Numbered from the stretch's first letter, positions 1-29,377 are shown. The stretch is 64,000 nucleotides of DNA from Candidatus Altimarinota bacterium (GCA_021734785.1 JAIPIF010000005.1:1-64000); one strand, 5' to 3'. The notes: a model not told the origin generated them from the letters alone. Numbers and translations are program-made.

Positions 1-3000
1 GTCCCGATCCCCACGTTTCCTGTCTCGCGATAAATATTTCCCCCAGATTCAACCCAATCCGTGTCCGCGTACGCATTGATCGCTCCCGCCACCGCCGCTG
101 CGGTCGGAATCGCAGTGTCATCCTTGGTCGCGGCGGCCCATTCGGCGGCAGTGAGGACGGCGCTGCCCGCCAGATCCCCCACTTCTAGATTGGAAATGCT
201 GTTGCCCATGCCGTTGGCATCGAAGGTTTTGTTCGTCAGCGTGTCTGTGCTGCTGGCGGTGATAAACCCAGACGTCGTGTTGTCCGCGGTCGAGAGATCC
301 TGACCGGTGATGTCCGTCAGGTACGTGCTCGCCGCTGTCCCAGGGGTGAGGTAATCGGCGTCCGCCACGGCTACAGAAATGTTTCCAACCCCATCCGCTT
401 TGACCAAACCGTTGATTGCTCCCACCACCGGATCCGATTCTGCTGTCAGATAATTTTGCAGATCACTGATCTGTGACTCCGTGATCGTGATCCCAGTACT
501 CTTGTCCCACAGAGAGAAAATAGGATCGGTTTCATCTGCTGTCGTGAAATGATCCAGGTCCGTGATCTGACTCTCCGTCAATCCCGTCAGCCCTGAACCC
601 TCACCAGAAAATGAGGTCGCGGTCAGTGCCCCGGTGATGTCCACCGTCAGCAGACTCGCCCCAGCCGCATCGAGGAAACTGAGAAAGTTCCCGGTCGGTG
701 CTGTGTCCGTCTGGCGCTGGAGTGTCAGCAGGTCAATGCCGTCGGCATTCGCCAGAATCTTTGTCGCACCTGCGACGTTATCGGTGTCAAACACAAATCC
801 TTCCACATCCGCCTCTGTCAGGACATCATCCGTTCCATCACTGTCCAAATATCCCGTCACCCAGCTCCCATCACCACGGAGAAATTCAGTCGCTCCGGGC
901 GTGCCCGTCAGTGCGATTTGCGTGTTCCATTCATTGAAACTGTCCAGCTCCGTGGAGTCCAGATAATCTTTGGTATCCACTGAATATGTCCCCGCACCCG
1001 TGCGCGCAAGCAAGCCCACGCCCGTGGGGAAGACACCGTCCAGCTCAGTCCCATCCACATTGTCATCCACTGCATCCGTCGCACTGCAGCCGATCACACC
1101 GCCATCGTTGTACAGGTGGCTTCCAGCCGGACAGACCGGCAGCGTGTCACCATCGGCCCACGCACTCACAGTGTCGTTCATGTCGTCCACCGTAAAATTG
1201 AGGAGTCCCGTCTCGTCATCGTACGCCACAGCAATCCGTGTCTGGGATCCCACCATCCCACCGACGAAGTCTTCCACTTCTTCCTGCGTCAGCATATCGT
1301 CTGTCGAGCTGATCGTGATGGTGCTGCCATCGGTCTGTGTCACGGTCGTGGCCCCTGAACCCACAATCGACACATCCGACGTCGTGTCAGACAGATCGAG
1401 CGTGGCTCCACCGGTTATGGAAGTCGCCGTCAAGTCTTGCAGCTCATTCGTCGCATCCGCATCCGCATCATCCACTGCATCCGTGCCGTCCGCATCCAGA
1501 TATCCCGCCACCCAGGTCCCGTCTCCCTGAAGGAACGTGTTGACCCCGGGCGTGCCCGTCAGGGCCACCTGCGTATTCCATTCCGAGAAACTGTCGAGTT
1601 CCGTTTCTTCCAGATAATCTGTGACCAACGCCCCCGTCGCATCCAGTGCCGCGGCATTTTCCCAGCTGACAGTGGTGATGATCGCCGTCGCTCCCGTGCC
1701 CGTCACATCGCCGCTCAACGTGATTTCCTCGTTACCCGTCAAGTACGTGTTTGTGTCCACGATCAGCGTCCCATCGCCGGCAGAGGTTTTGAGAAATCCA
1801 TCTGTCGTCAGCGATCCCAGTTTTACGTTTGTCAGTGCTCCACCAGAGAGAGAGGCTGTCCCATCCGTCAGTGTGGTCGCCGAAATAGAGCCAAACCCGG
1901 AAAGATTATTGGAACTCCACGACGCCGTGCCATCGGTCGCAGAAACCAATCCGGTGATGGCGCCTCCAGAAAGGCTTGCCGTGCCATCGGTAAATGAGGT
2001 CGCGGTCACATTTCCACCTTTATCCACAACGAATTTATTCACTCCGTCCCCCGTGTCGAGCGCGAGAAGGTTTGGATCGCTGTACGCCGTCACGCCGGAT
2101 GCGCCGGCGGTGTGCGTCGAATCGAGAGTAAGTGAAGTGTTACTGCCGATCGCAGACACGGTGAAAGTCTCACTTCCAATTTTCACCGCATCCCCGACCG
2201 CCAATTCTGTGCTAAATGCCGTCCCCAGTCCCGTCACCGCGGTGGAAGCCGCCGTCACCGAGACCGTGCCGGTGAGGGCTGTGCTGAGATTTCCCTGCGT
2301 GTGGAGCTGGGCGGTGGGACTCGTCGTCCCGATGCCGACATTCTTGGTCAGCTGGTACACTGTCGTCGAATTTTCTGTCCAATCGGTGTCCCCACCGGAT
2401 TCTGTGATCCGACTGGTGATTTCCGCTGAAATTTGATTCGCACTCCACAGATCCGTCGTGGTATCTCCCGCATCATTGAGCGTGTACCCACCATCGGCCA
2501 GCCCCCCGGCACCAAAGGTCGCGATATTTCCCGTTGTGGGAGCCACCACTAGGTCGTATTTTCCGGACAAGCTGGTGTCAAAATTCTCGAGCACGGTCTG
2601 CACATCCGTCCCGGCAGAGTTGGTGAAATTGTCGGTTGCCGCCACCGTCGCCGCCGTCTGGTCTCCCGTGTTGGTCCCGGTGGCCGTCCCCCCGCCCGTA
2701 GCAAACGTCGCATCGGTCAGCGCGGTGTTAAATTGTGCCAGTGTCCCCGTGATCCCCACGATGGACGTCTGGTCACCGGAGTTGCTTCCAGAAGTTGCCT
2801 GCAAGACAGCCAATTCTGCATCTGTCACGTATCGTCGATCAAGACTATCGGCAATGTCTGCCGTGGTCGCATCCGTCCCCGCCGTCACCAGTCCATCAGT
2901 ATCAAAGGTAATCTTCGTCGCCGTGCCGCCCGTGATCGGGGTGTTGGCATCGAGTTTGGAGGCAAGAGCACTTGTCAGCTCACTGTCCCGCGTGATCGTA

Positions 3001-6000
3001 TCTGCAATCCGCGCATCCGCTACCGTTCCGGTGGTAATTTGTGATCCATTGAGCGCGGTCAAACCAGAGCCATCTCCCGTCAGAGAAGCTGCGGTCAGCG
3101 CCCCGGTGATGTCCACCGTAAAGAGACTCGTCCCCAGGGCGTCTTCAAAGTCGAGAAAATTCCCGGTCGGGGCCGTGTCCGTCTGGCGCTGCAGCGTCAG
3201 CAGGTCGATGCCGTCGGCGTTGGCCAGGATCTTGGTCGCCCCGGCGGTGTTGTCCGTGTCAAACACAAATCCTTCCACCTGAGATTCTGTCAACTGCGTG
3301 TCCGTGTCGGTATCTTCTTCACACGTCACCGTGCCGTCGGCGGCAATCACCCGGATCGAGGATCCCTCCGCGCACGTGCCATCCACCCGCTCCTGAAATC
3401 CGATAATTTCCTGGGTGTTGCCCCCGGAGATTTCCAAAATATTGGTCGCCTCTGTCCACGTCAACGTCTGGTTGTCTGTGTTGGCCTCAAAAGTATCAAT
3501 GTCATCTCCGCAAACCCACCGCGTGTTGAGATTGTCCCATTTCAAGACCTGATCGGCCGCACACGCCACATTGTTTGGCTGGTAGCTCATGTACTCGCCC
3601 GTGTTATTCAAAATGTCACTCCAGTACTCGGTGTCGTCGACGTTGATGGTTCCAATTTCTGTCTGCACAAACGCCGTCGTGGCGATGGAAGTGTCACTGT
3701 CCCCCGCTGTGGCAGTGGGAGCGGTCGGATCCCCCGTCAAAGCCGGAGATGCCAGTGGCGCATACCCGAAGCCGGTGACAAAATCGTAAATCTGATCGCC
3801 GGTGGCAAGGTTGGCAATGTCTCCGTCCGCCACAGCGGCGGTGGGGACGTCGGAAGCAGTATGCGTGTGCGCTGCCGAGGCAAATCCCGTGATGGGGACA
3901 GGCCAATCCGCTCCCGCCTCCGTAATCGTCAGCGTGTTGGTCCCATCATCCCATCCAAAAGCGGTGATCAGCTCATTGGAAATGCTGCCATCGACCTCTG
4001 CGGTCAAATAGGTCCCAGACAAATCCGGAATATCTCCTGCTGTCAAAACGGCGTCCACCCAGGCCGCGCCATCGTACCGGAGGAAGTCCCCCGCAAGGGC
4101 CTGGGTCAACGTCACATCTCCCAAATTTCCTACCGTCGATCCATCAAAATCATCCGTGCTGTCGGTGTCGAGATTGGCAGGAGCTCCGGTCAAACTCGCC
4201 CAGGGGAGACCCGTCAGTCCGGCTCCGGAGCCGGAAAAGGAGGTCGCCGTCACATTTCCATCCGTGTCGAGCGTGTAAAGATTCACCCCCTCGCTGTCTC
4301 GGGCAACAAAAACATTCGTCGTCCCGTCCGCCGAACTCCCCTGCACCACCAGTCGCCCGGCAGCCGGCGTCCCGTCAAAGTCGCTCGTGCCAATGCCGAC
4401 ATTTTTGGTCAGCTGGTACACTACCGTTCCCGTTTCAGCCCAGTCAGTATCGCCGCCCGAAGCGACAATTTCCTCAGAAATTGCTGTCGTGATTTTATTT
4501 GCCGTCCACAGGTCGGCCGTCCCACTCCCAGCGTCATTTACCGCATACCCGCTGTCGACCAGCACTCCGCTGGAAAAAGTGGGGAAATTATTGTCGGTCG
4601 CCGCCGGAACCGTCGGGATCCGGTCACCGATTTCCCCTTGGACAAACGCCGTCGTGGCAATGGACGTATCATTGTCATCTGCCAGCGGTGTCGGCGCGGT
4701 CGGGTCCCCCGTCAACACAGGACTCGCCAGTGGCGCATACGTGCTGGCGGCTGTCCCGGGCGTGAGGTAATCCACATCGACCTGCGCCGCAGAAATGGTC
4801 GTTCCATTTGACTTGATCAACCCGTTGATCGCTGCCACGGCAGGGTCGGTTTCACTCGCGCATACCCACGCCGTCCCCGTCCAGGCGATAAACTCTCCCG
4901 TCCCACACGTCAGTCCATCGGCGATGGTGGTATCCGTGTCGGTGTCTTCTTCACAGGTCACCGTGCCATCGGCATTGATCACCCGGATCGAGGATCCTTC
5001 CACGCACGTGCCATCCACGCGGTCTTGCAGTCCGGAAATTTCAGTCTGCACAAACGCCGTCGTCGCGAGAGACGTGTCATTGTCGTTTTCCAGCGGCGTC
5101 GGGCCCTGTGGGTTACCTGTAAAAATAGGATCGGCCAGCGTCGCATACCCGAGCCCCGTCACAAAATCGTAAATCTGATCGCCCGTGGCAATGTGTGTCG
5201 TGTCCGCATCGGCCACCGCCGCGATGGGCAGATCGCCAACCGCATGGCCGTGACTCGCAGAGGCAAACCCCGTGATCACGGTATCCCAGTTGACCCCCGC
5301 TTCGGTGATGCGAAGCGTGTTGGGCGTTTCGACCGTGTCGATCCAGGACGTGGCGGTGATCAGCTCATTGGAAATACTCCCATCGATTTCCTCCGTCAGG
5401 AAACTGCCGGTCTGGGCTTCCCAGTCATTCAGATCCGCGACTTCGAGAACCGCATTGATCCAGCCGGTTCCTACTTCGTACTGGAGAATCTCTCCGCCCG
5501 CCGCCGTGGTGATGGTTACATCCGACAGGGTCGTCAGCGGATCATCGGTCAGATCATCAGCTGCCAGCTCCGTCGGCGAGTAGGTCGTATTTTCATCGGC
5601 CACACAGCCCCAGGCCGCACCATCCCATTTCAAAATCTCGTTTGAACCACAGGTCAGCCCATCGGCAATGGTCGTGTCATCATCGCCGTCCGCGATATCT
5701 GCTGGGATAGAAGTAATGTCCGTCCACGCTGGCACCCAGCCAATCGCACGGTACAATCCCGCGTGATCCCCCCAGCTGTACGCGGTATTCCATTCCGTGG
5801 AGGTGCCACCCGTGGCCGTGATCACCCCTGCCACATCGAGTTTTGTCGCGGGGGTCGGTGTGCCAATTCCTACGTTTCCACTCTTGTTCACCACAAATTT
5901 GCTCGCCGCATCTCCGGTGTTGAGCGCCAGGAGATTTGGATCCGTGTAAGCGGTTGCATCTGTCGCTCCCGCAGAATGAGCGGAATCAAGTGTAAGACTT

Positions 6001-9000
6001 GTGTCACTGCCGATTGCAGAAACCGTGAAGATTTCACTGCCAATTTTTACAGCATCTCCCACTGCCAATTCTGTATTGAACGCCGTCCCTGAACCCGTTA
6101 CGCTAGCCGAAGCCGCTGTCACCGAAACGGTGCCAGTCAATGCAGCGTCCAATGCTCCACTGACAGCCACCCCCCCCACGGTAATTGCGTCCGTCGTGGT
6201 CGCGCCACGGGCAGTCACAGAAGCCAACGTGTCGGCTTCAGAGACAATTGCACCGGCTGTGGCATTATCAATTTGTGACTGAATCTTGACCGCACTCCAG
6301 AGATCAGACGTCGTGGTCCCGGCGTCATTTTTGGCACCGCCCACCGCATCGATCGCGCGTTGATTGGTAAAATACAAACTCGTCCCCTCGGCCAGGTCGG
6401 TCGTGGTATTGTCCGACAAATCGTCCGCCTGCAGCTGCGTGGAGGAATAACTCACTTCATCCGCCCACGTCGGGACGCCACTGGCGAGTTTTAGGACTTG
6501 TCCGTCGATCCCCGCCGCAAGGAAATCAGTATCATCCGTCGCGGCTTGGAACGGCAACGAACCTGTCGCTCCTCCTGCCAGGTCCGTTGCCTTCGCCGCC
6601 GTTCCTGCGATGTTCGAATCCAGGAACGCAACTGTCTTCCGCTCCGTCTCCGGAGTGAAAAACAACTGCGTGCCGTCGAACTCCAGTGCGCCCGTTTCTG
6701 GGGTGATGAGATTGGTCCCCGCGGTGAGTTTCAGCGGGGCGGTGGAAGTAGTCCCCGCATCCAGGTGCAGCAGCGCGGTGGGAGAAACAACGCCGATCCC
6801 GGTCATCCCGGTGCTGCGGATGGTCAGTCGCGGGGTCGTACCAGTCATAAATTGCAACGCGCCGGCTTCGCCAGCCCCATCCCGTCGAACGTAAATCCGG
6901 GCGGCATTATTGGAGCCACCCGTATCGGCAAGCGTAAAAATCATGCCCCCACCAAATCCGTCCGCCATGGTCCCAGAGGAAGTGGTCTTGAGCTGAAAGC
7001 CACTCGCCAGTCCGGTCGTGTCGATGAAGTTTCCCACGGTCTCCGTCGTGGTGCGTTCAAAAAATCCAACCGGAAACGTGTCCCCCACCACGTGCAAATC
7101 GCCCGCGGGTGTGGCCGTACCGATTCCCACTTCACCCTGCGCGTCTTCGAAGAGGGACGTCGAGCTCACCAGCGCCGAGCCATTCCAAAACGGAATGTAC
7201 CCAAGCGTGTTGGCGCCCACCTGCGGATCGGCCTCGGGGGCGGTGAGTTCCGTGATTCCGCCAGTATCATTCCGAAAATAAAGTTTTGTCTCTCCCCCGT
7301 CTTCCAGAGCGTAGATTTTTCCCTCGCCGCTGTTGTATCCCGGTGTCTGTGCTTGTTCGGGAAGAGAAAGTGCTGAGAGAGAAAATTCTCCAGACACATC
7401 TAGATCGCCGTTGACGTCGATCGTCGGCGCATTCATCCCGATCCGATCCACGGCATACAACTGAATCTGTGCCGAGGCGTTGGCTGAGATGTTGGCTCCG
7501 CTCCCGGCGGTCAAGAGGGAAATGTCCCCGCCACTCATACTTGTCGTCAGGGAAATATCTCCGTTGGGGAGATTGTTGGTGAGGCTGATATTTTTGCTCG
7601 AGAGTCCGGTCCCACTCGGAACCACAAAATTAAGTCCGCTTTCTCCTTTAATATTCATCACGCCACCCTCTCCTCGCGTGCGGATATTCATCACCTGTTC
7701 ATCCGTGGCATAAAAATCCATTTTTTCATCGTCACTCGCCAGCACCGGCTGGCCATTCATGTACAGCGTGCTCGCTCCCAGGTGGATGTCCTGCACCCAG
7801 AGATTTTGAAACCAGGTCTTGGGTCCCCCGATATTTCGCTGCGAGACAACAAAATCTCCCGTTCCTCCATCCTGTACTGCTCCCGTCATTTCCGGTAAAA
7901 TATCTCCCTCGACAAACACGGCGGCTTTGGCACAGGTGTCACCAATAGTAAGCGTCCCACTGGCATCTTCGTCCACGGTCCAAGTGTATCCCGCCGGACA
8001 GCTGGTCGTCGTCGCCAAGACAGAAGGCTCTGCCACCACGTGGAGCTTTCCTTCGTTGGTCGTGCCGGCAGCGTGTCCGATCCCGACGTTGCCGGTGGCG
8101 CGGTACACGTCGCTGCCATTGACGTCCCAGTCGGTGTCGGCGGTGGTGTTGATTTGGGTAATAATTTTGTCGGCACTCCAGAGGTCGGTCGTCCCGGTAC
8201 CGGAATCATTGAGGATCAAACCGCTGTCGGTCAGATCTCCATCTACTGCCAGCGTCGCAAAATTGCCCGTGGCTGCGGGCACGGCTTTGTTGGCTTTGCC
8301 GGTGACGTCTGAGGACGAGAGAAACCCGCTCGTTGCCGAAGTCCAGTCGCTGATCTCGGCCGATTCGATCATCGAGTCCACCCATGCAGCACCATTCCAC
8401 TGGAGGACTTCGCCGGTGGCGGCTTCGGTCACGGTGACATTGCTCAGAGACTGGATCAGATCATCGGTGATATCATCGGCGGCCAGCTCAGTGGGGGTGT
8501 AGGTGGTATTGTCATCGCCATCGTCCAGTCCCGAGGGCACCGAGGTCAGGCTGCTCCAGGGGAGAGAAGTCAAACTCGCTCCCGACCCAGAAAACAGTGT
8601 CGCGGTCACGGTCCCATCCACGTCCAGCGCGGAGGCCGGCACGGCCGTACCGATCCCAACATTTCCGGTCTTGGTCACCACCAGGCCGGTGGCTTGGTCC
8701 CCTGTTTCGACAGAAAGCAGTGTCGGATCCGCGTACGCGGTGGCGTCTGTCGCTCCGGCGGTGTGGGTCGAGTCCAGGGTCAAACTCGTGTCACTGCCGA
8801 TGGCCGACACGGTAAAGACTTCACTGCCAATCTGGATCGCGTCCCCCACCGCGAGCTCGGAGGAGAAGACCGTCCCCGATCCCGTCACCGCATCCGACGC
8901 GGCGGAGACCGAAACCGTCCCGGTCAAGGATTCAGAAAGATTCCCGCGCGCGTGCACGAGAGCCGTCGGGGTCCCCACACCGATGCCCACGTGCTGCGAG

Positions 9001-10490
9001 GCATCCAGGGTCACCACGGCGGTGTTGTTTGTGCTCAGGACAATCGCCCCATCGGTCCCCGTGTCGGTGACCGTGATGGAGCTGTCGTCTTGCAGGATAG
9101 AATTGGCAGCCCCCAGCTGTGTGGTCACGAAATCATAGATCTGATCCGCGGTGGAGAGATGCGTCGTGTCGGCGTCCGACGGCGTGGCAGTCGGCACATC
9201 CCCGATCGCGTCCCAGTCACTCGCATCCGCACTGGAGAGCGCCGCAATGTCCACCCCATCGACGGTGCCGGTGACGGCGAGGTTGCCGGTGACGGTTGTT
9301 GTCCCTCCGGTTCCTTCGATAAAAACTGCCGGAGCACTAAGGGAAATTTCTCCGTTTGAACCGGTTGCCTCCAAAATAATATCGCTATTCGCCTGTTCGT
9401 TTAAAAGATAAATGTTTCTGTTTGTTGCAGGAGGAATTGACATCCCTGTTGGCAAAATATGAAGTTTTAACAGTTGTTGCGATTTCAAAGACAAACTCCC
9501 ATCCGTATCTGAAGTTACAATCTCCATTGCTTGAGTTGGATCAGCTGCAAAACTCATGGTGTCCGCGCTACTCTCCAACACCTTGACCCCATTCATGTAC
9601 AGCGAGCTCTGCCCCAGGTGCAGATCCTGCACCCACAGATGTTTCCACCAGCGATCGGGTCCCCCCAGCGAGTACTGCGAGACCACCGCCGGTCCCACCC
9701 CCGCATCCTGCGTGGCACCCGTCATCTCGGGAAACATACTCCCCTCCAGCTGCACCGCCATGGCCGCACAGGTCTCCCCCTCGTCCGCGACCCCGTTTGC
9801 GTTGGTGTCTACAGAGAGCGAATACCCCGTGGGGCATCCCCCCACCGTGGCCGCTGTGGTGGCAGTAGATTTGACGTGGAGTTTGCCTTCGGGAGACGCC
9901 GTCCCGATCCCAAAGGAATCCGTCCCCGAGTCCCACACCAGATTGGCATCAGCCGACAGCGTCGAGCCGGATTTGAACTGAATCTGCCCGTCACTCGTCC
10001 CCGCCACAGCCAGTCCGCTGGTGGTGACATCCTCCCAAGAAGTGCCATTGAAGAAAAAGAGATCCGTCCCATCGGTATAGATCGATCCAGCGATCCCACT
10101 GGGAGCTGACGGCAGCTGCGAGAGCGTCATCTGCCCGGTGCCCCATTTGATCCCGCGGAAGCAGGGCGTCCCAGCGCCGTTGATCGTGGTGAAATTGGCC
10201 GGACAGCCAGCATTATTGGGGACGATCATCCCGATCCCCACGCTGTCATCTGTCTTGACCAGCGGCGTGCCCCCATCACTGCTGTAGAGCAGCCGGGACA
10301 TGCGCAGCATTTTGTTGAAGTCCGAAACGCTCAGCCGCGACCCCACAGAGTAGTCATCCACATCGTACGGCGTGTGCAGGGTCGTCTGCGCCCAGGCCTG
10401 GCCCCCCGGAAAAATGCCCGAGAAAACAATGCCCCCGATCCCCAGGATCAGCAGTGGTTTTTTGAGCACACGGAGGAGCGTTCTTGGCAT
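1..10490 (-). CDS. Giant secreted repeat protein with phage-tail-fibre-like modules (3' end outside window)
   Basis: Reading from the ATG at 10490 gives about 3,496 codons with no stop, so the gene runs out of the left edge. The N-terminus MPRTLLRVLKKPLLILGIGG followed by a hydrophobic stretch and AWA-Q is a signal peptide, so the product is exported. The rest is Gly/Thr/Asp/Ala-rich, has almost no Cys, and is assembled from recurring modules: NVGIGT(x)SP 'structural' motifs about every 0.5-1 kb, ALTGDPTAPT...IATTAFVQ segments typical of phage tail fibres, DQIYDFVT segments, LWVQDxHLG segments, and LTGTVSVTAAS...AVGDAVKIGSE segments. Such modules in known proteins form long trimeric beta-rich fibres. 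I infer a very long surface fibre or adhesin; the function is unknown. The C-terminus, where a chaperone or anchoring domain would sit, is not visible. No ribosome binding site precedes the ATG. Open plus-strand frames across this region are antisense shadows. Confidence 0.93.
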   Translation of the reverse strand, partial: MPRTLLRVLKKPLLILGIGGIVFSGIFPGGQAWAQTTLHTPYDVDDYSVGSRLSVSDFNKMLRMSRLLYSSDGGTPLVKTDDSVGIGMIVPNNAGCPANFTTINGAGTPCFRGIKWGTGQMTLSQLPSAPSGIAGSIYTDGTDLFFFNGTSWEDVTTSGLAVAGTSDGQIQFKSGSTLSADANLVWDSGTDSFGIGTASPEGKLHVKSTATTAATVGGCPTGYSLSVDTNANGVADEGETCAAMAVQLEGSMFPEMTGATQDAGVGPAVVSQYSLGGPDRWWKHLWVQDLHLGQSSLYMNGVKVLESSADTMSFAADPTQAMEIVTSDTDGSLSLKSQQLLKLHILPTGMSIPPATNRNIYLLNEQANSDIILEATGSNGEISLSAPAVFIEGTGGTTTVTGNLAVTGTVDGVDIAALSSADASDWDAIGDVPTATPSDADTTHLSTADQIYDFVTTQLGAANSILQDDSSITVTDTGTDGAIVLSTNNTAVVTLDASQHVGIGVGTPTALVHARGNLSESLTGTVSVSAASDAVTGSGTVFSSELAVGDAIQIGSEVFTVSAIGSDTSLTLDSTHTAGATDATAYADPTLLSVETGDQATGLVVTKTGNVGIGTAVPASALDVDGTVTATLFSGSGASLTSLPWSSLTSVPSGLDDGDDNTTYTPTELAADDITDDLIQSLSNVTVTEAATGEVLQWNGAAWVDSMIESAEISDWTSATSGFLSSSDVTGKANKAVPAATGNFATLAVDGDLTDSGLILNDSGTGTTDLWSADKIITQINTTADTDWDVNGSDVYRATGNVGIGHAAGTTNEGKLHVVAEPSVLATTTSCPAGYTWTVDEDASGTLTIGDTCAKAAVFVEGDILPEMTGAVQDGGTGDFVVSQRNIGGPKTWFQNLWVQDIHLGASTLYMNGQPVLASDDEKMDFYATDEQVMNIRTRGEGGVMNIKGESGLNFVVPSGTGLSSKNISLTNNLPNGDISLTTSMSGGDISLLTAGSGANISANASAQIQLYAVDRIGMNAPTIDVNGDLDVSGEFSLSALSLPEQAQTPGYNSGEGKIYALEDGGETKLYFRNDTGGITELTAPEADPQVGANTLGYIPFWNGSALVSSTSLFEDAQGEVGIGTATPAGDLHVVGDTFPVGFFERTTTETVGNFIDTTGLASGFQLKTTSSGTMADGFGGGMIFTLADTGGSNNAARIYVRRDGAGEAGALQFMTGTTPRLTIRSTGMTGIGVVSPTALLHLDAGTTSTAPLKLTAGTNLITPETGALEFDGTQLFFTPETERKTVAFLDSNIAGTAAKATDLAGGATGSLPFQAATDDTDFLAAGIDGQVLKLASGVPTWADEVSYSSTQLQADDLSDNTTTDLAEGTSLYFTNQRAIDAVGGAKNDAGTTTSDLWSAVKIQSQIDNATAGAIVSEADTLASVTARGATTTDAITVGGVAVSGALDAALTGTVSVTAASASVTGSGTAFNTELAVGDAVKIGSEIFTVSAIGSDTSLTLDSAHSAGATDATAYTDPNLLALNTGDAASKFVVNKSGNVGIGTPTPATKLDVAGVITATGGTSTEWNTAYSWGDHAGLYRAIGWVPAWTDITSIPADIADGDDDTTIADGLTCGSNEILKWDGAAWGCVADENTTYSPTELAADDLTDDPLTTLSDVTITTAAGGEILQYEVGTGWINAVLEVADLNDWEAQTGSFLTEEIDGSISNELITATSWIDTVETPNTLRITEAGVNWDTVITGFASASHGHAVGDLPIAAVADADTTHIATGDQIYDFVTGLGYATLADPIFTGNPQGPTPLENDNDTSLATTAFVQTEISGLQDRVDGTCVEGSSIRVINADGTVTCEEDTDTDTTIADGLTCGTGEFIAWTGTAWVCASETDPAVAAINGLIKSNGTTISAAQVDVDYLTPGTAASTYAPLASPVLTGDPTAPTPLADDNDTSIATTAFVQGEIGDRIPTVPAATDNNFPTFSSGVLVDSGYAVNDAGSGTADLWTANKITTAISEEIVASGGDTDWAETGTVVYQLTKNVGIGTSDFDGTPAAGRLVVQGSSADGTTNVFVARDSEGVNLYTLDTDGNVTATSFSGSGAGLTGLPWASLTGAPANLDTDSTDDFDGSTVGNLGDVTLTQALAGDFLRYDGAAWVDAVLTAGDIPDLSGTYLTAEVDGSISNELITAFGWDDGTNTLTITEAGADWPVPITGFASAAHTHTASDVPTAAVADGDIANLATGDQIYDFVTGFGYAPLASPALTGDPTAPTATAGDSDTSIATTAFVQTEIGTINVDDTEYWSDILNNTGEYMSYQPNNVACAADQVLKWDNLNTRWVCGDDIDTFEANTDNQTLTWTEATNILEISGGNTQEIIGFQERVDGTCAEGSSIRVIAADGTVTCEEDTDTDTQLTESQVEGFVFDTDNTAGATKILANADGIDLLTLQRQTDTAPTGNFLDFEDALGTSLFTVDITGALTAASLTGDGSGLTALNGSQITTGTVADARIADTITRDSELTSALASKLDANTPITGGTATKITFDTDGLVTAGTDATTADIADSLDRRYVTDAELAVLQATSGSNSGDQTSIVGITGTLAQFNTALTDATFATGGGTATGTNTGDQTAATVAATDNFTNSAGTDVQTVLENFDTSLSGKYDLVVAPTTGNIATFGAGGLADGGYTLNDAGDTTTDLWSANQISAEITSRITESGGDTDWTENSTTVYQLTKNVGIGTTSPTAQLHTQGNLSTALTGTVSVTAASTAVTGLGTAFSTELAVGDAVKIGSETFTVSAIGSNTSLTLDSTHTAGASGVTAYSDPNLLALDTGDGVNKFVVDKGGNVTATSFTDGTASLSGGAITGLVSATDGTASWSSNNLSGFGSISATTLTDGTASLSGGALTNVKLGSLTTDGFLKTSAGDGTLIVDTNTYLTGNEEITLSGDVTGTGATAIITTVSWENAAALDATGALVTDYLEETELDSFSEWNTQVALTGTPGVNTFLQGDGTWVAGYLDADGTDAVDDADADATNELQDLTATSITGGATLDLSDTTSDVSIVGSGATTVTQTDGSTITISSTDDMLTQEEVEDFVGGMVGSQTRIAVAYDDETGLLNFTVDDMNDTVSAWADGDTLPVCPAGSHLYNDGGVIGCSATDAVDDNVDGTELDGVFPTGVGLLARTGAGTYSVDTKDYLDSTELDSFNEWNTQIALTGTPGATEFLRGDGSWVTGYLDSDGTDDVLTEADVEGFVFDTDNVAGATKILANADGIDLLTLQRQTDTAPTGNFLSFLDAAGASLLTVDITGALTATSFSGEGSGLTGLTESQITDLDHFTTADETDPIFSLWDKSTGITITESQISDLQNYLTAESDPVVGAINGLVKADGVGNISVAVADADYLTPGTAASTYLTDITGQDLSTADNTTSGFITASSTDTLTNKTFDANGMGNSISNLEVGDLAGSAVLTAAEWAAATKDDTAIPTAAAVAGAINAYADTDWVESGGNIYRETGNVGIG
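628..820 (-). repeat. Giant-protein module 'VEGFVFDTDN...TVDITGALTA', copy 1
   Basis: In-frame module inside the giant gene. It encodes the VEGFVFDTDN, ILANADGIDLLTLQRQTD and PTGNFL segments and ends in TVDITGALTA. It is nearly the same as the copy at 3095-3300, with differences mainly at synonymous and a few non-synonymous sites. Confidence 0.8.
2030..2290 (-). repeat. Giant-protein module 'LTGTVSVTAAS...AVGDAVKIGSE', copy 1
   Basis: Module of about 85 residues: LTGTVSVTAAS, a variable VTGxGTAF segment, ELAVGDAVKIGSE, FTVSAIGS, TSLTLDSTHTAGA and a closing DPNLLALDTGD. It is repeated at 5890-6150 and 8700-8935, each time directly next to an NVGIGT motif. Confidence 0.8.
3095..3300 (-). repeat. 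Giant-protein module 'VEGFVFDTDN...TVDITGALTA', copy 2
   Basis: Second copy of the module at 628-820, with the same DNA-level skeleton, including the stretch encoding LQRQTDTAPTGNFL. The two copies are 2.5 kb apart in the same frame. Confidence 0.8.
3660..3810 (-). repeat. Phage-tail-fibre-type module, copy 1
   Basis: Encodes DQIYDFVTGFGYAPLASPAL, then TGDPTAPTATAGDSDTSIAT and TAFVQTEI. The 'PLASPxLTGxPTAPT...IATTAFV' pattern is a well-known repeat of tailed-phage fibre proteins. Related copies lie at 4639-4740 and 5038-5195. Confidence 0.85.
4639..4740 (-). repeat. Phage-tail-fibre-type module, copy 2
   Basis: Encodes YAPLASPVLTGDPTAPTPLA followed by DDNDTSIATTAFVQGEI. This copy is shorter than the other two: the DQIYDFVT segment is missing and a TPGTAAST segment takes its place. 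Confidence 0.85.
5038..5195 (-). repeat. Phage-tail-fibre-type module, copy 3
   Basis: Encodes DQIYDFVTGLGYATLADPIF, then TGNPQGPTPLENDNDTSLAT and TAFVQTEI. It is the most diverged of the three copies (PLASP replaced by TLADP). Confidence 0.8.
5890..6150 (-). repeat. Giant-protein module 'LTGTVSVTAAS...AVGDAVKIGSE', copy 2
   Basis: Same module as 2030-2290, here with DPNLLALNTGDAASKFVV at its C-terminal side leading into GNVGIGTPTP. At protein level it differs from the other copies at a limited number of positions. Confidence 0.8.
7736..8013 (-). repeat. Giant-protein module with LWVQDIHLG, copy 1
   Basis: Encodes CPAGYTWTVDEDASG, an ILPEMTGAVQDGG segment, GGPKTWFQNLWVQDIHLGAS and TLYMNGQPVLAS. 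It is paralogous to 9573-9850 and is one of the few modules containing Cys (two per copy). Confidence 0.8.
8700..8935 (-). repeat. Giant-protein module 'LTGTVSVSAAS...AVGDAIQIGSE', copy 3
   Basis: Third copy of the module also seen at 2030-2290 and 5890-6150. It reads AVGDAIQIGSEVFTVSAIGS and then TSLTLDSTHTAGATDATAYA. Confidence 0.8.
9573..9850 (-). repeat. Giant-protein module with LWVQDLHLG, copy 2
   Basis: Encodes CPTGYSLSVDTNANG, FPEMTGATQDAGVG, GGPDRWWKHLWVQDLHLGQS and SLYMNGVKVLES. It is the N-terminal-most of the two copies in the protein. Confidence 0.8.
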
Positions 10491-25467: not shown

Positions 25468-27768
25468 TCACGGCACAAATTTTGCGGGCCTGAGCTCATC
25501 AAATTTTTTGAGAATCTTGAGATCTTTATGAGAAATCTTTCCCACGTACAGCTCGGGCAGTGTCCCACCACTACTGAGAAATCGATCCACCTCCTGCTCC
25601 CCACGGAAATAAATGGAATCTTTGGTAAACGCCCCGGATTTGGACGTTTTGGAAACACCGCGCTTGGATTTGACACAGAGCTTCCAGACTAAATCTTCGG
25701 AAATGTCGTAGGTACTCCGGAGAAAATCAAAGAGATCCCGAAAAGACATCTTTCCCGCGAGAAAGATTGCCACCATCAAGAGCGCCGGCGTGATAAATTT
25801 TTCCCCGAGATTTAATCCCAGTGCGTTTTGGTTGTGGACCGCCAGTCCTTCTTCTGTGAGCAAATAGCCCGCTGTCCCCCGCCGGAAAATTTGAAAGGGC
25901 TGCTGCTTCCCATTTTCGTTTCGAAACACATGGGTCCCCAGCTCGTGGACAAGCAACGCCTGCAGGCGATTTTCACGAAATGTCGCTCCTTTTCGGACGA
26001 GAATACTTCCATTTTTGGTGACCTGTACATCCGCCACAGACTCTTCCAATAATTTCACTTTCCAGTGAGAAAGATGGTGTGTTTTTAAGTACGCCTGAAG
26101 CTGCTCGACGGCTGCACGGCTGTCGAGCTCTGGACTGTCGTCGGGAGCCACTTCTGGATGTTTTTTGAGAAACTCCACCGCTTTGCGATACCGTATCTCT
26201 GTCACGCCGCCAAACACCCGTTCGGAAAAGTGCGGAAAATCATCCGTGCCCACCGATTCGATGAGTGAGGCACGATCCGAAAGTTCCTGAATTTTTTTGG
26301 AAAAGAGTGGATACAGCACGTGATCCACTTCCGGAATTTTTTTGAGTTCTCGCTGAATGTGATCCAGATCCAGTTCACATTCCCGGTACAAAAACCGTGG
26401 CACAAAGTCCCCGTGCACAAGAAAGAGCTCTTTTTGTTCTTCCAGATTTCGAGGATTGATGTACGTGAGAAGCTTGAGCTGCTCGTCGATGCGGCAGATT
26501 TTTTCATCCACATTTTTTATCTTTCGTTCATCCACATGGGAAGCGATGACCGCTGGAGCAGATTCGAATTTTTTGTTGGGATCGACGAGAAAGTCTGTCA
26601 GGAATTTTCCTGCGAGCAAAATGTCGGCGTCTTGTACGGTTCCCTTTTTGACGGGCAACTTCATTCGCTGTCCTCCGATCGTGATGTCCAAAAGTGATTG
26701 CTCGGGATGGTGGCGGTTGGGCGCAATTAAATTTTCCGAAGCGGTCAGATCGATTTTTGCCACGATGTGTTCTGGAGGCTCTCCGTTGAGAAGAACGTTT
26801 TCGTACACACCGAGAATGGGTTTTTTCTTGAGGGATTCCTCGAGGCTCGATTTATCAGAAAACAGTGTTTTGCTCACATTGACGCCATCTTCAACCGAAA
26901 GAATTTTGAGATCAGCTATTTTTTTGAGTCGCTGTTTGAGCGGCACACGATTGGCAATCTGGATCTTGAGCCCCGCACGAGCATTGAGCTCTAGGACTTT
27001 TACTCCCGCATTGGTGACCACAAAATCGATGCCGAGATAGCCAATTTTGGTCGTCTTTTGGATTCGGGCTGCTGATTCGAGGATTTCATCCCAAAAGGGA
27101 ATCTGAAACCCCACTGCTGACTCTCCATTTGGAAGCTTTCGGAGAAACTGGGAGTGGTACGCTGCTCCGATGGTCTTGCCGGTTCCCAGGTCGATGCCCA
27201 TACCATACGCCCCCAGCTCCATGTTGGCTTTGCCGTCCGATTCATGCGTCGGCACACGAAGCATCGCCATCACGGGAACAAGGTTAAAGACAATCACTCG
27301 CACATCACAGAGTCCGGCTTCGGTCAGGCGCGCAAAATCTGGATGGGGCTGGAGATGTTCTTCAAAAATAACCGAATCTCGGATGCCGGAGATTGAATAC
27401 TTTCCGTCCAAAATATCAATGCAGTGACGATACATGTCCTCCTGATACAGGCGATGTCCCCCGGCCGTCCGCCAGGAGTGTTTTTTGCGTTCAGTGACAA
27501 CTAGAATTCCCGCTCCGCCGTATCCGTGGTTTGGCTTGAGGACAAAAGAATCCGGCAGCGCATCAAAAAACTCCGGCGTGAGCTCTGTGTGGCGTCGTAT
27601 CACGTGGAAGAGTTTTGCCGCTCCGATACCACGAGAGGCGAGAAACTGCTTGGTAAAAATTTTATTATCGGCAAACTTTTTATTGGCATGCGAGTTGTGC
27701 CGCGCGATGTATTCAAGATTTCGCGCGTTCATCCCCAAGATCTGTCCGGATCGTTTCCACCAGTTCAT
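25468..27768 (-). CDS. RimK-like ATP-grasp ligase / retropepsin-like / DUF1704 HExxxH peptidase fusion
   Basis: 766 aa with three domains. Residues about 25-275 are an ATP-grasp ligase of the alpha-L-glutamate-ligase-like type: FVLKPNHGYGGAGILVV (ATP loop), LCDVRVIVFNLVPVMAMLRV and DFVVTNAGVKVLELNARAGL (Mg2+ ligands). Residues about 315-405 resemble the retropepsin-like RimK-associated protease: ILGVYENVLLNGEPPEHIVA, KIDLTASENLI in place of the catalytic K(I/V)DTGA, and ILLAGKFLTDFLVDPNKKF. The catalytic Asp remains but Thr-Gly is lost, so it is probably degenerate. Residues about 420-766 are a DUF1704/QEGLA (MATCAP-like) metallopeptidase with HELGTH at about residue 608 and EEGLA at about 638. 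It lies 9 bp downstream of a 7TM gene. Inferred role: adding and removing amino-acid tags on a peptide or protein; the substrate is unknown. Confidence 0.82.
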   Translation of the reverse strand: MNWWKRSGQILGMNARNLEYIARHNSHANKKFADNKIFTKQFLASRGIGAAKLFHVIRRHTELTPEFFDALPDSFVLKPNHGYGGAGILVVTERKKHSWRTAGGHRLYQEDMYRHCIDILDGKYSISGIRDSVIFEEHLQPHPDFARLTEAGLCDVRVIVFNLVPVMAMLRVPTHESDGKANMELGAYGMGIDLGTGKTIGAAYHSQFLRKLPNGESAVGFQIPFWDEILESAARIQKTTKIGYLGIDFVVTNAGVKVLELNARAGLKIQIANRVPLKQRLKKIADLKILSVEDGVNVSKTLFSDKSSLEESLKKKPILGVYENVLLNGEPPEHIVAKIDLTASENLIAPNRHHPEQSLLDITIGGQRMKLPVKKGTVQDADILLAGKFLTDFLVDPNKKFESAPAVIASHVDERKIKNVDEKICRIDEQLKLLTYINPRNLEEQKELFLVHGDFVPRFLYRECELDLDHIQRELKKIPEVDHVLYPLFSKKIQELSDRASLIESVGTDDFPHFSERVFGGVTEIRYRKAVEFLKKHPEVAPDDSPELDSRAAVEQLQAYLKTHHLSHWKVKLLEESVADVQVTKNGSILVRKGATFRENRLQALLVHELGTHVFRNENGKQQPFQIFRRGTAGYLLTEEGLAVHNQNALGLNLGEKFITPALLMVAIFLAGKMSFRDLFDFLRSTYDISEDLVWKLCVKSKRGVSKTSKSGAFTKDSIYFRGEQEVDRFLSSGGTLPELYVGKISHKDLKILKKFDELRPAKFVP

Positions 27769-27777
27769 GCAAAAAAA

Positions 27778-29343
27778 TTATTCTTCTTTGGTGTCGTCCC
27801 CAAACAACGCCGAAAATTTAAAATATTCAGACAGCCGCAGCCCGGTAAATCGCCCGAGCCACACGGTAGCCAAAATCGGAAGCAGGATGATCTCTGGCAC
27901 AGAAAGAATGCGGGTTTCCATCCAGTTCCACTCGACAAACACAAAACCAATGAGCGACACCAAAACCGTTTCTCCCGCAACAATCAGCGCCGTACGAAGG
28001 CCCCCTTCGGTTTGCGCAGAGAGAAATTTTTCCGAAATGGTCGACATCACCAGCATGGGAAAGATTGCAAGCGTCAGATTGATCGACGTGTCGAAATACA
28101 GAGCCAGTCCCAGCACGAGAAAAAACGAAAGTGCCAGCACCGAGAGCAGCAGAGAAACTCGTGGAATGTAGAGCAGCTCCACATGGTCAAAAAGCAGACG
28201 AATGAGATAGCTCACCACCAGCACCAGCGCAAAAACAAGAAATCCAAACTCCAGTCCCAGCAGGATAAAGCTGAGCGTCAGCATGAGCGGCGCAAAAACT
28301 CCAAAGGTCCGTAGTCCCACAAACTGGCGGAAAAATGCGATAACAAAAGTCACAAACGGTACGGCAAGAAGGAGAAAAATCACATTCTGAGAAATGCCGT
28401 GCGAGACGAAGTACGTCGTCAGCCGTGAGAGCGGCAGCCAGGTACTCATCCGTGCATCGAGAATTTTGAATTCAATCGCGCGCTCCTGCAGATCATCCGT
28501 GATGGTTTCGGTCGGATTTTGAAACAGCAGATCCAGTGCCTCTGGCCGGGTCAAAAGGATGGACCCTGGATCAAGAATGACAAAGACCGGTTGCAGTAAT
28601 TTGGCAATCTGATCAAGCGATCCTTCCGAGATCTGCACCAGCTGTTTTTGTCGAAAAGAGATCTGCGACTCAGGAGAAATTTTTTGCCACCACTGTGCAA
28701 AATTTTGAAAGGCAGTCGCGGAGCGAGTGTAAAAAAGAATCATTTCCGCTTCCTGAAGAAACCCTACATTTTCTTGGAGACGTCGCTGAAACGTTTCATC
28801 CGCGGCAATGCCGGTTTCGGATTTTTGAAAAGAAAGTGTTCTGAGCCAAATCCCGCGGTCTCCCGCACGCTCGATGAGCCCCTCCACGGGCACCTCTGAG
28901 TCTCTGACAAGTACCATTTTTTGGCTGTAGACTTTGACGGAAAAAATCCGGGATTCTCGAAGCTGTCCCTGACGCACGCTGAGTTTGACTTCGTAGCGAC
29001 CGGGGTCAGCAAAAGTATGGCGCACTTTTCCCCCCCACTGCACCTGACTCCCATCGCCGAAATCCCACCAGTACACCGGCGGACCAAATTCTTCTTCCGA
29101 AAGCAGTTCCGAGCTCATCGCATCAAACACGGTCTCCTGTCCGGGCGCAATAAATTCATCGTACTCGGCCTGGGGACGGATACGGAGTGGTTCTTTTTCG
29201 GGGGAAACGGATTCTGCCGCTCGATCAGGACTGGCCGCTGGCAAAATGGTGGCCTCCGGGACGGAGGGAGAATCGGGAGATTGTGCCATCACCAGGCTGG
29301 TCAAAAGCAGTCCCCCTGCGAATGCCAAAAACAGACGTTTCAT
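27778..29343 (-). CDS. PKD-domain 7TM membrane protein (7TM_transglut family)
   Basis: 521 aa. A signal peptide (MKRLFLAFAGGLLLTSLVMA) is followed by a Pro/Ser-rich linker and a PKD domain (VYWWDFGDGSQVQWGGKVRH, TFADPGRYEVKLSVRQGQ; residues about 85-155). A soluble region (about 155-300) comes next, then six to seven membrane helices (about 300-510) beginning NVIFLLLAVPFVTFVIAFFR. GLRTFGVFAPLMLTLSFILL and LLYIPRVSLLLSVLALSF match the 7TM module that in Proteobacteria is fused to an inactive transglutaminase and encoded next to an alpha-L-glutamate-ligase-like ATP-grasp gene. Here the transglutaminase part is replaced by PKD plus an unrecognised domain. The start ATG at 29343 gives the signal peptide. 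It is first in the operon with the ATP-grasp fusion and probably anchors or senses for it. Confidence 0.8.
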   Translation of the reverse strand: MKRLFLAFAGGLLLTSLVMAQSPDSPSVPEATILPAASPDRAAESVSPEKEPLRIRPQAEYDEFIAPGQETVFDAMSSELLSEEEFGPPVYWWDFGDGSQVQWGGKVRHTFADPGRYEVKLSVRQGQLRESRIFSVKVYSQKMVLVRDSEVPVEGLIERAGDRGIWLRTLSFQKSETGIAADETFQRRLQENVGFLQEAEMILFYTRSATAFQNFAQWWQKISPESQISFRQKQLVQISEGSLDQIAKLLQPVFVILDPGSILLTRPEALDLLFQNPTETITDDLQERAIEFKILDARMSTWLPLSRLTTYFVSHGISQNVIFLLLAVPFVTFVIAFFRQFVGLRTFGVFAPLMLTLSFILLGLEFGFLVFALVLVVSYLIRLLFDHVELLYIPRVSLLLSVLALSFFLVLGLALYFDTSINLTLAIFPMLVMSTISEKFLSAQTEGGLRTALIVAGETVLVSLIGFVFVEWNWMETRILSVPEIILLPILATVWLGRFTGLRLSEYFKFSALFGDDTKEE

Positions 29344-29377
29344 CACTGTGGATTTTGCCAGATCTGAGGAAAAATGC

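Follow-up and report, generated by a model that had tools for sequence, protein, structure and literature searches.

A candidate membrane-linked writer-eraser system in Patescibacteria that joins an ATP-grasp ligase to a MATCAP metallopeptidase

We analyzed a 64,000-nucleotide stretch of DNA from a Candidatus Altimarinota bacterium (GCA_021734785.1 JAIPIF010000005.1:1-64000; the window), in which two adjacent minus-strand genes encode a candidate system for extending and trimming a protein C-terminus. The first gene (27778..29346) encodes an RloB-like membrane protein of 522 amino acids (aa) with a signal peptide, a PKD domain, an alpha/beta domain and a seven-transmembrane (7TM) domain of the 7TM_transglut family. 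Nine base pairs (bp) separate its stop codon from the start of a 766-aa open reading frame (ORF; 25468..27768) that fuses an ATP-grasp ligase, a retropepsin-like domain and a MATCAP metallopeptidase. An earlier note on this locus, made from sequence alone, proposed that ligation and trimming are combined in one polypeptide at the membrane. Our analysis adds evolutionary evidence for this idea, and points to MATCAP as the eraser in place of the two peptidase domains that the note had combined. A comparison with 50,697 phage records gave no match, and a phage origin was rejected.

The ligase domain spans aa 8-291 of the fusion protein (26896..27747, minus strand) and matches the Pfam family PF14397 (E = 4e-55) and the NCBIfam family TIGR02291 (E = 8e-72). 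The latter, named “alpha-L-glutamate ligase-like” and classed as a hypothetical equivalog, gives 242 bits, below its curated cutoff of 314. The domain fits an RloC-type ATP-grasp, and the same profile retrieves proteobacterial RloC-like loci. Against the RimK family TIGR00768 it scores 42.9 bits, with a curated cutoff of 143.4, and by sequence it is a relative of that family rather than a member. As the earlier note had described, the domain contains a glycine-rich loop (a Lys-Pro/Gly-rich ATP-binding loop at aa 75-87) and the ELNARAG metal site (aa 260-266, within LELNARAG at 259-266). Residues K78, D248, E260, N262 and R264 are unchanged in 25 of 25 fusions. We obtained an AlphaFold model of the 766-aa protein with a mean predicted local distance difference test score (pLDDT) of 87.6 and a predicted template modeling score (pTM) of 0.51, the latter leaving the relative placement of the domains unsure. 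Foldseek comparison of this model with the PDB identified RimK (5zct) and a RimK-RpsF complex (5zk6), both at E = 3e-8.

The C-terminal part of the protein (aa 454-758; 25495..26409, minus strand) is a MATCAP (DUF1704/QEGLA) domain, matching PF08014 with E = 1e-43 and 149.8 bits against a curated cutoff of 27. It contains HELGTH (aa 608-613; 25930-25947, minus strand) and EEGLA (aa 639-643; 25840-25854, minus strand), both noted earlier, and so has the HExxxH motif and the third ligand in xEG that accompany the family profile. Human MATCAP (7z5g) matches the fusion in fold (Foldseek E = 9e-14) and in sequence (phmmer E = 2.5e-16). H608, E609, H613 and E640 are unchanged in all 25 fusions compared, and 104 of 106 MATCAPs retain both motifs, the exceptions being one frameshifted ORF (L071) and one short ORF (L098). 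At the former locus (L071:3761-6152), an apparent frameshift divides the fusion gene into ORFs of 578 and 299 aa. By these sequence and fold matches the fusion contains an intact MATCAP metallopeptidase domain, with predicted carboxypeptidase activity. Absence of the ATP-grasp or MATCAP fold, or loss of catalytic residues in relatives, would have spoken against the earlier proposal; both folds were found, and the residues are kept.

Between these two domains lies a degenerate RimB/RloA-type retropepsin domain (~aa 314-401; 26566..26829, minus strand), in which KIDLTA (aa 338-343; 26740-26757, minus strand) stands in place of DTGA and the FLVDP end motif is retained (FLVDPNKKF, aa 393-401). We detected no Pfam match of any kind in the middle domain of the 766-aa protein, and no PF05618 match in any of 25 fusions. 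Among split-form proteins, which contain only the ligase and middle domains, 8 of 14 match PF05618 (best E = 1.5e-9), and a profile of their middle domains matches PDB entries 9g58 and 9g59, which are structures from that family (2.9e-9 and 1.4e-8), and 2pma. Profile-to-profile alignment with hhalign joins the fused middle domains to these live split-form domains with 99.6% probability (E = 4e-24), and control alignments of the middle domain to the ligase and MATCAP profiles gave 0.1%. Homology to RimB/RloA is therefore indirect, by way of the split forms. The structural comparison proposed in the earlier note recovered RimK and human MATCAP, but no retropepsin was among the 50 matches listed for the whole-chain model, so the assignment of this domain rests on profile comparison. 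The retropepsin layout seen earlier thus holds as domain identity, but not as a working active site: the Asp is retained and the following Thr-Gly is lost, and we read the domain as catalytically degraded.

In the 522-aa protein we identified a PKD domain (PF18911, E = 4e-12), whose fold the structural model confirmed, and a 7TM_transglut domain (PF14402, E = 4e-28), in agreement with the architecture given earlier. The earlier idea that PKD had replaced a transglutaminase module stands in part: PKD is present and neither Pfam nor NCBIfam profiles detected a transglutaminase in the protein, but the AlphaFold model reveals a second, alpha/beta domain between PKD and 7TM (~aa 140-300; 28447-28929), and in many relatives the extracytoplasmic part is missing altogether. 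Foldseek matches to the alpha/beta domain were weak and unconvincing, and the faint resemblance was limited to the C-terminal domain of Nir2. Bare 7TM proteins of 210-245 aa occur in many Patescibacteria (L037, L043-L050, L098-L209), which indicates that the sensor part is dispensable. The protein’s C-terminal tail, a candidate acceptor (27781..27804, minus strand; ...FGDDTKEE), ends KFSALFGDDTKEE. Taken together, the N-terminal signal peptide, the outer PKD domain and the seven helices predict that this tail is cytosolic, on the same side as the ligase, which has no signal peptide.

We searched 380 genomes of the phylum, of which 126 match the window protein. Ligases grouped at 90% identity form 216 clusters. 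MATCAP is fused to the ligase in 45 of these, encoded in the same operon in 42, elsewhere nearby in 19 and not nearby in 93; the remaining 17 are ligase-only. The domain order of the window protein, which the earlier note had proposed to seek in other genomes, is thus found in 45 distinct Patescibacteria clusters, almost always with an adjoining 7TM gene, and by this distribution it is a conserved class-wide system rather than a one-off. Its named carriers are Candidatus Gracilibacteria, Peregrinibacteria, Peribacteria, Magasanikbacteria and one record named Parcubacteria. Most other sampled Patescibacteria (Moranbacteria, Kerfeldbacteria, Shapirobacteria and others) encode the 7TM gene beside a fused ligase and retropepsin whose DTG active site is intact, with no adjoining MATCAP, and the ligase alone is found in Gammaproteobacteria, Nitrosomonas and Omnitrophota. 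The 7TM gene lies immediately upstream of the ligase in almost all loci with sufficient flank; in two code-25 Gracilibacteria loci (L095, L100), the fusion is present and the 7TM gene is downstream. Several proteobacterial loci begin with a separate retropepsin gene, giving the order rloA-rloB-rloC and bearing out the parallel drawn earlier with proteobacterial ligase/retropepsin/7TM operons. In the ligase tree, MATCAP-fused ligases fall in one large clade and in a second pair (L045/L046) next to an unfused ligase (L049), and these two placements indicate that the fusion probably arose at least twice. Five fusions from Magasanikbacteria/Parcubacteria, outside the window’s class (L053, L054, L074-L076), are 42-45% identical to the window protein and nearer to it than are most from its own class, which suggests lateral transfer. 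Two ligase-retropepsin proteins of 854-921 aa (L041:1411-4173, L042:2719-5280) carry an extra, second ATP-grasp-like region, and at five loci (L043, L044, L050, L175, L196) a second ATP-grasp gene lies directly downstream.

The C-terminus of the 7TM protein, overlooked in the earlier note, is the best clue to a substrate. It ends in Glu-Glu (EE) in 76 of the 87 clusters with coupled MATCAP (42 of 45 where MATCAP is fused, 34 of 42 where it is operonic). Of the 129 uncoupled clusters, 8 do so: 7 of the 93 that lack a nearby MATCAP, 1 of the 19 in which it lies elsewhere nearby and none of the 17 that are ligase-only. Among the fusions, the last 7TM residue is Glu in 44 of 45 and positions -3 to -12 are variable; where the retropepsin is live and no MATCAP is coupled, the most frequent last residue is Lys. 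Only 2 of 704 control ORFs and none of 45 other ORFs in the window end in EE, and chance acidic ends were rejected. A Shine-Dalgarno origin of the Glu codons was also rejected: all four GAA/GAG combinations are present, with GAGGAG in just 6 of 76; the distance from 7TM stop to ligase start exceeds 40 bp in 12 fusion clusters; and the 7TM tails of L095 and L100 end REEE and NEEEEE although their gene order is reversed. A strict coupling of EE and MATCAP was rejected in the enlarged sample because of exceptions both ways, and on these sequences the EE tail is a recurrent 7TM-family feature that is enriched with MATCAP and is no absolute marker of it. In six clusters with a live retropepsin (L275, L276, L277, L281, L283, L217), the 7TM protein ends DDDEE, DEEE or TEEE; we found MATCAP in only one of their genomes (G454).

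The state of the retropepsin motif follows the coupling of MATCAP. The motif is degraded in 44 of 45 clusters with fused MATCAP and 39 of 42 with operonic MATCAP (83 of 87 coupled clusters), and in 5 of 112 clusters that have the middle domain and MATCAP either elsewhere or not nearby. The genomes of four of these five (L241, L243, L248, L253, L254) encode MATCAP elsewhere; we did not find it in the fifth, whose contig had a cut ligase. Across the 153 clusters of our initial sample, Fisher's test gave 3e-31 for dead retropepsin versus EE, a value that presumes an independence that the genomes do not have. Since HExxxH and xEG are intact in the MATCAP-coupled clusters whose retropepsin is degraded, MATCAP appears to have taken over from the aspartic protease as eraser.

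Related systems share parts of this logic. RimK extends the RpsF C-terminus with glutamates, which are removed by RimB, an endopeptidase that needs ~5-6 contiguous glutamates (PMC11957791). The window ligase has a similar fold, but RimK-RimB works without a membrane partner, and RpsF, so far the only reported case of bacterial C-terminal protein poly-alpha-glutamylation (PMC11957791), does not end in EE in the window genome and its relatives (15 genomes), and this speaks against RpsF being modified here. In the rloABC operon of P. aeruginosa, an RloC-type cytoplasmic ATP-grasp likewise stands beside a 7TM_transglut protein and a RimB/RloA-type retropepsin, and genetics backs a writer/eraser logic: deleting either rloB or rloC rescues mutants that lack the poly-Glu-cleaving RloA proteases (PMC12239564). 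RloB is an inactive transglutaminase fused to 7TM, whereas the window protein carries PKD and alpha/beta outer domains and a tail ending in Glu-Glu; RloA is secreted and catalytically intact, whereas the window retropepsin is cytosolic, without a signal peptide, fused and degraded, leaving the fused MATCAP as putative eraser. Because of these differences, the window system resembles RimK-RimB and RloABC in its predicted logic but is not RloABC. Eukaryotic MATCAP/TMCP tubulin carboxypeptidases remove C-terminal residues and deglutamylate or shorten Glu chains (PMC10499314). Their HExxxH and EEG metallopeptidase domain aligns with that of the fusion in sequence and fold (7z5g), but they trim tubulin tails and have no fused ligase, the TTL/TTLL ligases being separate proteins. 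Proteobacterial DUF1704/QEGLA loci also place a MATCAP gene beside an ATP-grasp gene; on Aminobacter plasmid pAA02 (L212), the ATP-grasp is annotated as a glutathione synthetase, an N-formylglutamate amidohydrolase lies on the other flank of MATCAP, and the stretch read holds no 7TM or retropepsin gene. This is a second, separate MATCAP-ATP-grasp pairing. In the literature collection searched, we found nothing on a DUF1704/ATP-grasp link, nor anything of relevance about patescibacterial glutamate ligases. Elsewhere in the window, an ORF of ~3,496 aa (3-10490, minus strand) runs to the window edge and has no convincing Pfam domain.

We propose, at close to even odds, that the two genes encode a membrane-linked C-terminal tagging cycle in which the ligase extends and MATCAP trims the 7TM tail. 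The ATP-grasp domain would add amino acids, most likely L-glutamate, to a protein C-terminus, and MATCAP, acting as a carboxypeptidase within the same chain, would take residues off singly. The likely acceptor is the cytosolic tail of the 7TM protein, whose encoded Glu-Glu would serve as both primer and end point, and the outer PKD and alpha/beta domains may sense envelope or surface state and so set tail length. Unlike RimB, a carboxypeptidase may require no minimum chain length, consistent with the brevity of the encoded Glu-Glu end; the retropepsin, a former eraser, would be retained merely as a dead structural or dimerization module. More tentatively, the cycle may be a reversible polyglutamylation of the cytosolic C-terminus of a receptor-like 7TM protein by one bifunctional polypeptide, with the switch from retropepsin to MATCAP made more than once. 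Evolutionary evidence lends the writer-eraser idea good support. The domains, their conserved motifs, the linkage of the genes, the decay of the retropepsin and the Glu-Glu tails are observed here, and the catalytic activities, the choice of glutamate, the tail as substrate and on the cytosolic side, and the sensing role are inferred.

Several points weigh against this proposal. In the larger sample, the tree accounts for retropepsin state with only 5 changes, for EE with 9 and for MATCAP coupling with 10. Independent differing pairs are nearly all concordant but number fewer than six, short of significance, and independent evolutionary origins are likewise too few. Six clusters with intact retropepsin and no adjoining MATCAP nevertheless end in EE, and eight coupled clusters with dead retropepsin do not. 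Family f159 and L217 combine a live retropepsin with EE, and L237 and L244-L247, for example, are coupled but lack it. We found no published biochemistry for patescibacterial members, and since the RloA eraser is secreted in Pseudomonas, the substrate there may be elsewhere.

Of the alternatives, the one that survives best, though we consider it unlikely, is that the enzyme makes and recycles free poly-Glu or a Glu-capped small molecule or peptide, such as an osmolyte or envelope precursor. The 7TM protein would then be the transporter or regulator, with an acidic tail that serves only to dock the enzyme. RimK also makes free poly-alpha-Glu, the RloA authors weigh free polyglutamate and osmolyte roles (PMC12239564), and the most conserved pair is 7TM plus ligase, often without any outer domain. 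This alternative does not predict Glu-Glu at the extreme C-terminus with variable flanking residues, however, and known MATCAP members are protein C-terminal carboxypeptidases (PMC10499314). In a second alternative, which we think improbable, the substrates of ligase and peptidase are other proteins of the cell or envelope, and the Glu-Glu tail does no more than recruit or autoinhibit the fusion by filling the MATCAP cleft: such a C-terminus looks like the product end of MATCAP substrates, and EE tails occur in a few clusters without MATCAP near, but we found no other common candidate substrate, and RpsF, the known RimK target, lacks the EE end. Least probable is a sugar- or lipid-associated ligase that does not ligate glutamate to protein, with the MATCAP fusion reflecting envelope precursor processing; PF14397 (“sugar-transfer associated”) is the best Pfam family and the TIGR02291 cutoff is missed, but TIGR02291 spans almost the entire domain, high-ranking Foldseek matches include RimK and ArgX/LysX, whose substrates are peptides and carrier proteins, and the link between this domain and poly-Glu-type peptidases recurs.

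If the proposed tagging cycle is true, bacteria would have their own equivalent of the tubulin tail code, aimed at a membrane protein and with writer and eraser combined in a single polypeptide. The cycle would also hint at the ancestral setting of MATCAP enzymes and supply a hypothesis on the substrate of the uncharacterized RloB/RloC pair of Pseudomonas and Vibrio.

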